64,000 bases of DNA, from contig NZ_CP134772.1 of the NCBI RefSeq assembly GCF_031882575.1, positions 1,135,001 to 1,199,000 of the forward strand. The letters run 5' to 3'. Made by a program: the position numbers and the translations under genes. A model generated the notes under the pieces. The model was not told the origin of the DNA and did not search any database. It worked only from the letters and a program-made list of their open reading frames with translations. Position 1 is the first letter of the stretch, and each line of letters starts with the position of its first letter. Shown here piece by piece: positions 14,264 to 27,606 of the stretch. This DNA is from Pseudomonas sp. VD-NE ins. Its GTDB lineage: Bacteria > Pseudomonadota > Gammaproteobacteria > Pseudomonadales > Pseudomonadaceae.

Positions 14264-15745
14264 TCAGAAGCGCCAGATCACGTCGATGAACGCGCGGTGC
14301 ATGTACGAATCAACCTGCTTGCCGTAGGCATCGCCCGGTTTGAACACACCGCCACGGAAGCGCACGAGGGCCGAAGGCTCGTCGATCGACTGGCTCAGCG
14401 CCGCCGGCAACAGGCCTTGCTTGAAGTACTTGGTGACGACCAGGTCCATCTCCTGACCGAGGTCCTTGTTGCCGTCTTCAAGCGGCAGCGAAGTGCTGGA
14501 GAGGATCGCGCCGGTGGCGTCGTCGGTATTGTTTTCCACGGCGTTGATGCCGTTGCTGCCCACCGGTTTGTTGCCGTCGACACGCCAGAACTTGTGATAG
14601 ATCAGGCTGGCGTCGTACTCGTCGTTGACCATCCACGAACCGAACAACGTCGCGGTCTGCATGTTGTTCATTTCGCCACGGAACGCTTCGCCGAAACGGT
14701 GAACCCGCGAGCGCGTACCGGTGTAGTTGGAGCGGTTGCTTTCAAGACCGGTCTGCTCGTAATCGGCGCTGGCGCGGGCATAGGCACCGCCGACTTGCCA
14801 TTGCGGATCGAGGCGCAGACGCACACCGATGTCGGTGGCCCAGCCGTTGACGTCATCGCTGCGCTTGGCTTGCGCCGGACGCGAACCATCGGCATTCAGC
14901 GCGTTGACCGTGTCGCGGTCGCCGCTCATGCCGGTGATGCTGCCCCAGTAGTTGACGGTGTTGGTGTTGCGCCAGTTGTAGGCGTCGCTGTCAGCGGTCA
15001 GGCCGAGCCAGCTGATGTCACCGTTCTCGGTTTTATCCAGCGAATCACGCGGGACGCCCGGTTCGGCGTAATCGAGTTTGCCGTCATCATGGGTGTGGTG
15101 ACCGCGAATGCCGACCCAGTTGCCCGGCGTCCACTGGTAAGCGGCATCTGCGTAGGCGTGCAGGCGATCCTTGTCTTTCGGCGCCAGCTCTTTGAGGTCG
15201 GTGCGGTATTCGCTGAAGCGTTCGGCGACACCGGCGTTGGCGCGCAACAGGGTGGTGTCGAAGGTCCAGTTCAGCGCTTCGATGTTGGTGTCGCGCCACT
15301 GGCCATCGTCATTGCGCAGACGCTGACGACCGAACTTGAGCATCTCGCCCGGGTACGGGGTGAGGCCGCTGTAGCCGACCCAGAACTCGCGCATCGCCAA
15401 GTAGTTTTTCTTGGTTTTGCGATCACCGTTGTCGGTGGCTTGTTCACCGTCGGATTGTTGCAGAGTGTCGGTTTCGATGATGTCGGTCGAGGTCACCGCC
15501 TGGCCCATGGCGTAGGCGCTCCACGCGCCGCTTTCGCCATAGATCCACGGACGCAGGTCGAGGCCGACACCGTTGACGTCGCCGCCCTTGGCGGTGCCGA
15601 GGTCACGGTCGTCTTCGGACTGGCCGGTGACTTTCACTTCGAGGCCGAAGTTCTTGGTTTCAGTCATCGCGGCCAGTGTCGGGCAAGACCAGATCAGCGC
15701 GAACGAGAGGCCAATGCCGGCCTTCACGAATGGATTCAACTTCAT
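14264..15745 (-). CDS. algE: Alginate outer-membrane export porin AlgE
   Basis: A 493-aa outer-membrane beta-barrel with a signal peptide ([19 protein letters not shown]...). Alternating amphipathic strands fill the protein and it ends in an aromatic residue (DVIWRF), typical of BAM substrates. AlgE is an 18-stranded, electropositive channel through which acetylated, epimerised alginate leaves the cell. Its start overlaps the algK stop by 4 bp (ATGA), so translation is coupled. Confidence 0.94.
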
Positions 15746-17253
15746 AATTTTTCCTCGCCGTCTTCTTCTTCTTGCAGGGCGTGCAGTTGCAGCGTGTTCG
15801 GGTTCAGAGCGCCACGGCTGGCTTGCTCTTGTTGCAGCAGACGTTGCGCTTCGGCGAGACGCTCGGGTGGCAGTTGCGCGGCGAGGGTGGTCGCCAGCTC
15901 ATCGGCTTGCGGGGTGTTTTGCGCCTTGGCCAATTGGCTGAACACGTAGGCGTTGAGCGGGTCGGGCTTGGTACCCTTGCCTTGGGAGAACAGTTGGGCG
16001 ATGGCGAAGTCGGCGCTGTTCTGGCCGTTGCGCGCGGCGGTCAGCAGGTGGTCGAGAGCCTTCTGCGGATAGACCTTGCCCAGGTAGCCACGGCGATAGA
16101 TCTGGCCGAGGTAGTAATCGGCGGCGACTTCACGGCCGACGGCTTTCTGGAAATGTTCTTCGGCGACTTTCGCGTCAGCCGGAACCATTTTCCCTTCGTA
16201 GTAGAGCTTGCCCAGCAACAGCTCGGCGCGTGGCTGGTCGGCGGCGCGGCCGTTGTCGAGGTACTTCATCATCTGATCGACGTCGCCCAGTTCGGGATAG
16301 TCGTAAAGCAATTGCGCGAGGGTGACCCACGACGCCGGGTAACCCGGAGCGATCGGCTCAAGCAGCGACTGCGCGGTTTTTTCGTCGGTCTTGCCGAGGG
16401 TCGAATCGGCCAGCACACGGGCCACGGAGTCGACGCGTTGTGCGGTGACGGTGCCACGGCTGTAACCGGCCTGCAGCTGCTTGATCAACTCGGCCTGTTG
16501 CTCAGGCTGGGCACGTTTCTGATAGACCGTGGCCAGTTCGACGTAGCAGATATCGGTGGTGTTGAGCGCGGCTTTGCAGATCTTTTCCACGTCATCCAGG
16601 TGCTGGTCGTAGGTGCCTTGAGTGCGATACAGCAGCACCTGCGCCAGACCCGCTTCCGGGTAGCCGGATTTGCGCCATTGATCGATCTGCTGCTGCGCGT
16701 TGATGTTCGGGAAGCTGTGCGGGTATTGCAGGTACAGCATCGCCAGCGGGATCAACGTATTGCCTTCGCCATTGGCGGCAGCTTTTTTCAGCAGGCTTTC
16801 GGCTTCGTGGTGCTCGGCTTCGGTGGAACCCGGTTTGGCCACCAGCAAACGACCGAGACGCGCCTGTGCACGCGGCGAAACACTGGCGGCGGCGCGGTAA
16901 GTCGCCTCGGCCTGTTTCATTTGTGCAGGGTCGCGGCTGTCGACCTGGATATCGGCGAGGCCGACTTGCGCTTCGCTGTAGCCCAGATCGGCCAATTGCT
17001 GATAGTTCTGCGCAGCGGTGGCGGTGTCGCCACGCTTGAGCGCTTCGTTGGCCAGACGCTGATCGGGCAGACCGGCGCAACCGGCGAGACTGACCGCCAA
17101 TGCCAAGGCACACACCGATCCCATGTGGGAGCTGGCTTGCCAGCGATTCAGGCGACTCGGTATTTCAGCAAGACCGCATTGATCCGATCGCTGGCAAGCC
17201 AGCTCCCACAGGGATCGTGGCGTTCTGAAAAGACTGGTGATAGTCACAGGCAT
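15742..17253 (-). CDS. algK: Alginate secretion lipoprotein AlgK, N-terminus disrupted by a REPIN
   Basis: A Sel1/TPR-repeat outer-membrane lipoprotein that places AlgE and joins the periplasmic complex. The mature part from [20 protein letters not shown] matches P. aeruginosa AlgK closely. The lipobox is VSLAGC. The 503-aa frame starts at [13 protein letters not shown] (ATG 17253), but residues about 15-44 are translated from an 87-bp REP doublet (17124-17210) that stays in frame. The hydrophobic signal core ([11 protein letters not shown]) lies after the insert. Start options are ATG 17253, giving a signal peptide with a ~40-residue N-extension, or ATG 17124 (MGSVCALAL), which lacks a basic n-region and a clear Shine-Dalgarno. 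The rest shows no defect. Confidence 0.9.
17124..17210. repeat. REPIN (ATCGCTGGCAAGCCAGCTCCCACA type) inside algK
   Basis: TGTGGGAGCTGGCTTGCCAG at the low end and its exact 24-bp reverse complement at the high end enclose about 39 bp. Total length is 87 bp, a multiple of three. The same palindrome flanks 27518-27606 and occurs singly at 28578-28597. It lies between codons of the algK signal-peptide region, which is uncommon for REPs because they are usually extragenic. Confidence 0.9.
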
Positions 17254-17262
17254 GTCCTCGAC

Positions 17263-18432
17263 TTAAAGACCGGCAGCCATGGCTTTGTCGATCAGCCAGT
17301 TCAGGTTCGGGCCACGGTCGCTGTTCACTTCCACCGGGCGGCCGGCGAGGCTGCTGTCGAGCGGCTCGTCAGGCTGGATCTGTACGCGGATGTCGGAGGA
17401 CAGGTCGGCGCTTTTCAGGCTGGTGCTGCTGACGATCTTGCCGGTGCGGGTCTTGTCTTCGCCGGCGATCTGGAAGCTCACCGGGGTGCCCGGACGCACG
17501 TCGCCGAACTGGCGATAGGAGAAGCGCGCATCGACGCTGGCCTGGGTGTTGCGCGGCACCAACTGGAAGATCACATCGCCCTTGCTCGCGTATTGACCAT
17601 CAGCCACCAGTTGCTGAGCCACGGTGCAATCGCACGGCGAAGTCAGGGTGCCGGTCATTTGCTTGCCGAACAGTTCTTCAACCTTGGCCGGCGACAGTTG
17701 ATCTTCTTCCAGATGACCCTTGAGCACGTCGAGCATGCTGGTGCTGAAGGTCGCCAGTGGCGCGCCTTTGGCGGCAACGCCGTCGGACTTGACCAGACTC
17801 TGCACGGTGCCGTCACGCGGCATGGTGATGTTCATCCCCGGCACGCTGACCAGACCGGCCTGTGCATGGCTGACGAAGTACATGCCGTAAACCGATTTGA
17901 AAATGAAACCCGCCGCGACCAGGCCAACGGCGAAGATGCCGGCGCTGAACGTCACTGCTTTCAGGCGCCCGAACGGGGTCATGCCGGAGCCGCCGTCCTT
18001 GACCTTGCGTGCTTTGGTGAAGTTATCGCGCTGCAGGGTCGCCAGCACTTCGCCGATGCTGACGATGTCGCCAGCAAGGTGCGAAGTGATCAGGTGGCGC
18101 AGGGTGGAAATGTCCTGCGGCTCAAGGTTCTGGAACTGGCAGCCGGCACGGCCGGTCTGGCGGTCGAAGGAACGCACCTGCAGTTCAACGTCCATGGCGA
18201 TGCCGAGGTTGTCGATGACGAACTGCAGACGCGCCTTGTACACCTGGCCAATGGTCAGTGGCATTTGCCCGGCGTTGAACGCCAGACCACCGGCCGACAG
18301 GTCCAGGACCCGCGCTTCGACCGGCGTCCGGTCAGGACCGAAGAAGCGCAGTTTGGCCGGGATTTTCACGCGGGCGTGTTGGCGCTGGGCTTCGGATTCA
18401 TGCACTACGTTGGCGTTGACGGCGGTATTCAT
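17263..18432 (-). CDS. alg44: Alginate co-polymerase Alg44 (PilZ c-di-GMP receptor)
   Basis: A 389-aa inner-membrane protein. The N-terminal PilZ domain shows QRQHARVKIPAKLRF and DLSAGGLAF, the c-di-GMP-binding pattern (RxxxR-like and DxSxxG). A single TM lies at about residues 160-185 (FSAGIFAVGLVAAGFIF). The periplasmic part resembles HlyD/MFP adaptors (SLVKSDGVAAKGAPLATF). Binding of c-di-GMP activates polymerisation by Alg8. In the first motif the Arg spacing should be checked in an alignment. It starts 36 bp after the alg8 stop and ends 10 bp before the algK frame. Confidence 0.93.
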   Translation of the reverse strand: MNTAVNANVVHESEAQRQHARVKIPAKLRFFGPDRTPVEARVLDLSAGGLAFNAGQMPLTIGQVYKARLQFVIDNLGIAMDVELQVRSFDRQTGRAGCQFQNLEPQDISTLRHLITSHLAGDIVSIGEVLATLQRDNFTKARKVKDGGSGMTPFGRLKAVTFSAGIFAVGLVAAGFIFKSVYGMYFVSHAQAGLVSVPGMNITMPRDGTVQSLVKSDGVAAKGAPLATFSTSMLDVLKGHLEEDQLSPAKVEELFGKQMTGTLTSPCDCTVAQQLVADGQYASKGDVIFQLVPRNTQASVDARFSYRQFGDVRPGTPVSFQIAGEDKTRTGKIVSSTSLKSADLSSDIRVQIQPDEPLDSSLAGRPVEVNSDRGPNLNWLIDKAMAAGL

Positions 18433-27517: not shown

Positions 27518-27606
27518 ATCGCTGGCAAGCCAGCTCCCACAGGGTTTTGCGTCGTGCACATATTTTTGTGCACCACTGAAACTGTGGGAGCTGGCTTGCC
27601 AGCGAT
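27518..27606. repeat. REPIN (ATCGCTGGCAAGCCAGC type)
   Basis: ATCGCTGGCAAGCCAGCTCC at the left and its full inverted copy ending at 27606 flank about 39 bp, with the internal hairpin GTGCAC...GTGCAC. It is the same palindrome family as the copy in algK. Confidence 0.85.

Follow-up and report, generated by a model that had tools for sequence, protein, structure and literature searches.

The view that REPs are normally extragenic, which an initial annotation of the locus described here also took, agrees with the accessible text of PMC3116915, according to which the three commonest 16-mers of Pseudomonas fluorescens SBW25 occur 1,067 times and 14 overlap genes; the distribution of REPs and RAYT genes in the P. 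fluorescens group is the subject of PMC3390384 (accessible text). Intragenic REPs and in-frame Rickettsia palindromic elements (RPE) are nevertheless already known. GTAG and CGTC REPs have been described within ORFs, where dimers encode 20–30 residues, and the recB genes of two Xanthomonas species carry different REPs at about one site (PMC3733652, accessible text), while RPE are palindromic repeats that lie in frame in genes (accessible text of PMC10969869 and PMC3733652). We found no report of a REP in algK among titles and abstracts (subscription papers being outside this scope), and no printed report of REPs recurring at one place in a single signal peptide. The AlgKX structure is uninformative on the leader because the signal sequence is absent, P. 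putida AlgK beginning there at residue 33 (PMC9734138, accessible text).

The locus lies in a 64,000-nt stretch of the Pseudomonas sp. VD-NE ins genome (referred to here as the window, and all positions are given within it). The algK ORF (15742–17253, minus strand) is open throughout the REPIN and encodes 503 amino acids with the lipobox VSLAGC, in which Cys59 is encoded at 17077–17079; this bears out the earlier claim that the REPIN is in frame in algK and parts the start from the h-region and lipobox. The identity of the protein is given by NCBIfam NF038194 (812 bits against a curated cut-off of 700, matching from residue 46), the match to AlgK of PDB 3e4b begins at residue 60, and as in a lipoprotein the lipobox Cys is preceded by a hydrophobic stretch. 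On the minus strand the leader consists of GAGGA, ATG 17253, GTG 17247, about ten codons, the REPIN and then the h-region and lipobox, which places the REPIN downstream of the algK start codon but ahead of the signal peptide's hydrophobic core (Table 1). The Shine-Dalgarno motif GAGGA is 7 nt upstream of GTG 17247 (codon 3), with GAGG only 2 nt from ATG 17253, and ATG 17124 sits at the edge of the repeat. AlgG and an alginate lyase are named by NCBIfam in the same run of genes, and we take the AlgE, Alg44, Alg8 and AlgX genes to be such from position, without a curated match (for alg44, from its place in the operon). Judged from sequence comparisons, our preferred reading, to which we give a probability of roughly 0.87, is that the n-region of the AlgK signal peptide is translated with the REPIN in it, as tolerated filler that would be cleaved off, at a site where REPs recur.

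Table 1. Features of the algK leader and its surroundings (window positions).
Feature	Position	Strand	Evidence or remark
REPIN, in-frame pair of inverted REPs with arms of 27 nt	17121..17213	-	arms, copies, exact REPs, fold
First REP in coding direction, read LWELACQR	17187..17209	-	exact 23-nt REP
39-nt spacer, stop-free in the coding frame, amino acids seemingly unconstrained in close relatives	17148..17186	-	
Second REP, minus-strand reading NRWQASSH	17125..17147	+	exact 23-nt REP
algK CDS from the probable true start GTG 17247 (listed ORF: ATG 17253)	15742..17247	-	profile match, GTG conservation, spacing of Shine-Dalgarno-like motif
Shine-Dalgarno GAGGA, immediately 3' of the alg44 stop codon (17263-17265)	17255..17259	-	
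h-region and lipobox; last 12 pre-Cys codons under strong purifying selection in close relatives	17077..17115	-	
ATG, alternative start of the initial annotation; without Shine-Dalgarno-like motif, not conserved	17122..17124	-	
alg44	17263..18432	-	stop 9 nt ahead of ATG 17253; sub-cutoff matches to secretion adaptors only

The REPIN itself had been correctly recognised. Its arms (17121–17147 and 17187–17213) are 27 nt each, 96% complementary and 39 nt apart, and both contain the 23-nt REP GTGGGAGCTGGCTTGCCAGCGAT without mismatch and on opposite strands, a sequence which did not occur once in 100 shuffles of the window. The element has 97 matches in its own genome at E 0.001 or better, many of which are partial or represent one place counted on both strands, and 149 REPs within two edits were found in 844 kb of this genome compared with one in 200 kb of shuffled sequence. 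It is a REPIN in being a multi-copy inverted REP pair with a short spacer that is able to form a hairpin, and departs from the description in lying in frame within algK rather than in extragenic DNA. A second REPIN is present in the window at 27518–27606, with identical 23-nt arms (27518–27540 and 27584–27606) in the opposite order, and at G000:C1:3577255-3578128 four REPIN-like matches with a spacing of about 260 bp suggest that a larger unit is repeated there in tandem. Rfam matches all stayed below threshold, among them MIR474 at 17112–17218 (34.7 bits for a cut-off of 48), presumably because of the long hairpin. The one match above cut-off to PF01797 (Y1 transposase) in the same genome is a 163-aa frame, and the four REPs in this 3.3-kb locus are of the GAGC(C/T)TGCTC type, which is the other main type of the genome and not that of the window; we infer that the putative RAYT of this locus may have moved the window REPIN.

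We looked for algK and its leader across the genus. An initial search of relatives found some match at E 0.001 in 42 of 57 genomes including our own, many of these being only Sel1-like repeats or REP frames, with 33 reaching 1e-90 or better among the matches listed, and in the genus search mature AlgK was matched with an E of 1e-60 or lower in 355 of 398 genomes. From these we collected 310 loci with a 5' end (30 + 30 + 80 named loci + 30 + 140 short stretches), picked in order of similarity to the window AlgK and to a second AlgK (L034), as a consequence of which the most distant species are under-sampled and about 135 of the 355 genomes fall outside the sample. Using the PDQ anchor, 307 of the 310 loci were parsed to give 257 different leaders, which are not independent observations owing to shared ancestry and recombination; the three unparsed loci (L202, L205 and L209, from G366, G085 and G137) were excluded from all counts, and by eye the first seems to be REP-bearing and the other two REP-free. 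We note that one algK match (L029, G033:C1:2057208-2058715) is in two overlapping pieces (residues 1–158 and 153–503), which would fit either a frameshift well away from the REPIN or an error of sequencing, and that one genome has two AlgK-like genes (G026:C1:1024087-1025427 and G026:C1:374358-375671, with 63% and 50% identity).

A REP was found in 197 of the 257 leaders within three edits and in 179 within one edit (24 of 1285 shuffles matched at three edits and none of 1285 at one edit; matching at four edits was rejected as too loose because 47 of 257 shuffled leaders matched). By genome, 153 of the 217 parsed, our own included, have a REP in the algK leader, as do 74 of the 80 named loci, though this last share is biased upward since these loci, which overlap the other genomes sampled, were drawn partly with a REP-derived peptide pattern. 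The REP insertion in the algK leader is thus no oddity of one strain but is widespread in the genus and recurrent. It is also concentrated at this place, as the 80 named loci (519 kb) contain 146 REPs within two edits in the algK leader, which makes up 2.8% of the bases, and six elsewhere, these being single two-edit matches at two places. In the 844 kb of our own genome, 35 REPs including the two of algK lie in ORFs with a coding-looking downstream part, and we recognised no other clear in-frame intragenic REPIN among the 13 of these we examined, which look like two-edit chance matches in real genes, REPs before ordinary starts, or spurious frames. A second list, of 13 REPs with a coding-looking upstream ORF part (3'-end overlaps included), was covered as far as it shares entries with the first, and in 20 additional stretches chosen for their long open frames the coding-like cases seemed by eye to be REPs before ordinary starts. 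A protein search with residues 1–62, which detects only proteins of similar length, returned 21 proteins, all belonging to PF27483, and the 14 with names are AlgK.

A further reading is that the REPIN is translated and, in addition, selected as an RNA hairpin which tunes AlgK output, the pacing of ribosomes on the signal peptide, or mRNA stability where alg44 meets algK. This is compatible with our preferred reading, as both can be true, and we regard it as possible but unlikely. The coding strand has a folding energy of -110.6 kcal/mol (z of -7.1 against 200 shuffles), the arms match with no more than two mismatches in 15 nt in 145 of the 180 two-arm leaders and do so across changes of REP type, and the leader is nearly the sole REP site in the operon stretch around algK in the 80 named loci as well as one which has changed repeatedly. 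However, the arms have three or more mismatches in the remaining 35 two-arm leaders, translation should melt the hairpin, 64 of the 217 genomes have no REP here, and matched arms are to be expected from REPIN mobility alone. The stable hairpin is compatible with a regulatory role and also with plain REPIN mobility. A stronger version of the same idea, which we consider doubtful, is that in much of the genus the n-region is a domesticated landing site for REPINs, where repeated and independent capture is selected since the hairpin, or a pause due to it, sets AlgK output at the alg44/algK junction; if this were true, the protein code would serve solely as a constraint, through which an RNA element could reside in an operon that lacks spare intergenic space.

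The history of the site was examined on a FastTree phylogeny of 145 mature algK genes (a quick tree in which 43 of 142 inner branches fall under 80). REP presence and absence cannot be explained on it by fewer than 17 changes (counting both gains and losses), of which 12 are forced by starred branches, and 30 changes are required by the 11 combinations of arm order and frame. It could be argued that all of this follows from a single ancient insertion which diversified and was lost in some lineages, together with leader exchange by recombination, and with no repeated insertion. One order and frame is indeed common to 132 of the 197 REP leaders, arm types are mixed and leaders mosaic, and there are REP-free alleles within REP-bearing clades (L017, L067, L102 and L125); a different h-region, PLTLAMAIALAGC, occurs in L017, its identical leaders and L102, which looks like the result of recombination swapping the entire leader in one block. 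Against this, both arm orders are seen, the first arm occurs in each of the three reading frames (the CGSRLAGD kind among them), and several REP types are scattered over the tree, with REP cores switching between close species. Two leaders (L142 and L148) have a REPIN nested in frame within a REPIN, and another (L229) has a REP-like palindrome of a different type, also in frame, inside the first REP. A single ancient insertion is contradicted as the sole cause and we hold it to be very improbable, although recombination very probably contributes. Nested REPs in the algK REPIN, again in frame, may also be present in L255 and L260, which were recognised from translations or REP matches only, and in L119, L272, L286 and L295 no REP was found and the frame is intact.

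The question of whether the REPIN is translated was approached by a frame-blind test that took, in each leader, whichever motif-bearing ATG or GTG comes first in the stretch from the alg44 stop to the REP, the motif being a Shine-Dalgarno-like one. Such a start is present in 194 of the 197 REP leaders and shares the frame of the lipobox Cys in every one of them; three leaders have none. An earlier start anchor had been in frame in 192 of 193 leaders (L247, L266, L270 and L275 being without the anchor), the exception being L033, which has the same leader as L160, where an ATG overlaps the alg44 stop and the GTG is in frame. There are no stops in the coding frame between the first REP and the Cys in any of the 197 leaders, and in the span bounded by the outermost REP ends stops occur in the two remaining frames in 74 and 130 of 193 leaders. 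The third codon is GTG in all 184 MPV-type leaders, REP-free ones included, and the first codon is not ATG in six of them; in one of the six, the REP-free L317, an extra base shifts the codon-1 ATG out of frame but not the GTG. As the GTG is invariant and codon 1 variable in these leaders, GTG 17247 is probably the real start of algK.

The initial annotation had offered two possibilities, a long N-terminal extension or a start at ATG 17124, and had allowed that REP-free relatives might begin at the same downstream codon. The first of these is now strongly supported. The relatives do not behave as allowed, with 42 of the 60 REP-free leaders having an in-frame start with a Shine-Dalgarno-like motif 7–19 nt past the alg44 stop (the other 18 have no such motif), like the 194 of 197 REP leaders in which the motif-bearing start is 7–15 nt past it. 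The second possibility is not supported, as ATG 17124 is not conserved and 47 of the 197 REP leaders have no ATG, GTG or TTG that follows the REP and precedes the Cys by 12 codons or more (102, including the window leader, have an ATG at such a position, 32 a GTG without an ATG, and 16 only a TTG). A REPIN that is left untranslated, with alg44 before it and the algK start after it (ATG 17124 or a nearby GTG or TTG), and that is open by accident might be suggested by the 102 leaders with a downstream ATG, by the stop-poor nature of doublets (243 of 396 doublet frames in our own genome are open, with a 20-kb overlap counted twice, which with one third for length gives a rough yardstick of about one in five for a random REPIN to fit), by other REPs in our own and related genomes that lie in upstream ORF extensions before ordinary-looking starts, and by the accessible text of PMC3733652, which proposes this for most 5'-end REPs of P. 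putida, C. koseri and S. maltophilia ORFs, yet it predicts no constraint on frame or stops where all 194 motif-bearing upstream starts are in frame and all 197 leaders open, leaves 47 leaders with no downstream start, and is at odds with the Shine-Dalgarno-like 4-mers that precede 19 of 198 downstream ATG or GTG codons compared with the upstream in-frame start in 193 of 197 REP leaders (here the span searched was one base wider), and in our view is very improbable.

Selection was compared between parts of the leader in 48 close pairs, all of which come from the commonest REP class. In the spacer, substitutions at the three codon positions number 34, 41 and 44, with 26 synonymous and 74 non-synonymous codon changes, whereas in the last 12 pre-Cys codons they number 34, 8 and 132, with 138 synonymous and 19 non-synonymous changes; the stretch from the start to the REP is intermediate (30, 34 and 69) and the arms vary little. 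The spacer codons drift neutrally and the h-region is constrained. Within the REPIN, 162 substitutions would be expected to give 8.2 nonsense changes if random and none was observed, and in the commonest REP class the start-to-Cys lengths vary by threes between 162 and 186, the tree requiring no fewer than 40 length changes, a count that includes recombination. On these comparisons the amino acids appear to be nearly free and the reading frame not. The mean net charge of the 15 residues before the h-region is +2.1 in the REP leaders against +0.55 in the REP-free leaders, though in the latter the 15-residue stretch may extend past the start codon.

Taken together, the frame, stop, spacer, h-region and start-codon counts indicate that translation very probably runs through the REPIN from GTG 17247, giving a long n-region that would be cleaved off. 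According to our preferred reading, translation would begin just past alg44 at GTG 17247 (or ATG 17253), the ribosome would read the REPIN as some 30 residues of filler followed by the h-region and lipobox, and the whole leader would be cut off at lipoprotein maturation, for which reason mature AlgK would be unchanged. Since the n-region would tolerate almost any stop-free, in-frame sequence, it would offer a safe REP site in this part of the operon, where REPs have been gained, lost, replaced, halved and nested many times across Pseudomonas, with selection holding the frame open, rejecting frameshifts and stops, and hardly concerned with the amino acids. The sequences themselves show that the element is present, in frame, recurrent and under this pattern of selection, and from them we deduce the start that is used, the cleavage, and movement through a RAYT transposase and recombination. 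It should be noted that at about 57 residues the signal peptide would be unusual, and that the usable post-REP ATG of 102 REP leaders and the 64 REP-free genomes also count against this reading.

REPs are called extragenic by definition, and algK keeps them in frame in most of the genomes examined. With its turnover of type, orientation and frame, the algK leader documents in nature how REPINs are gained, lost, replaced and nested at one site, and the reading frame serves as the readout; it cautions against shifting annotated algK starts downstream and suggests that in dense operons cleaved signal peptides can offer mobile DNA a safe place. In its inverted doublet, multiple copies, hairpin and a Y1 transposase gene with REPs nearby in the same genome, the element resembles the REPINs and RAYT of PMC3116915, but unlike those, which the accessible text describes as extragenic, the algK REPIN is in frame in a gene and recurs across species. 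The accessible text of PMC3733652 doubts that the 5'-end REPs of P. putida are coding, whereas in algK the frame, stops and starts favour coding; the list of genes with intragenic REPs in that paper may or may not include algK. The stop-free, in-frame insertion in a gene is a likeness to the RPE, as far as the accessible descriptions of these go, but RPE are found in many unrelated genes of one intracellular genus, and the algK REPs in one gene and at one site in Pseudomonas, with differing types. As a repeat of this Pseudomonas genome, the algK element would not be a member of the RPE family, and unlike an RPE the insert should be removed together with the signal peptide.
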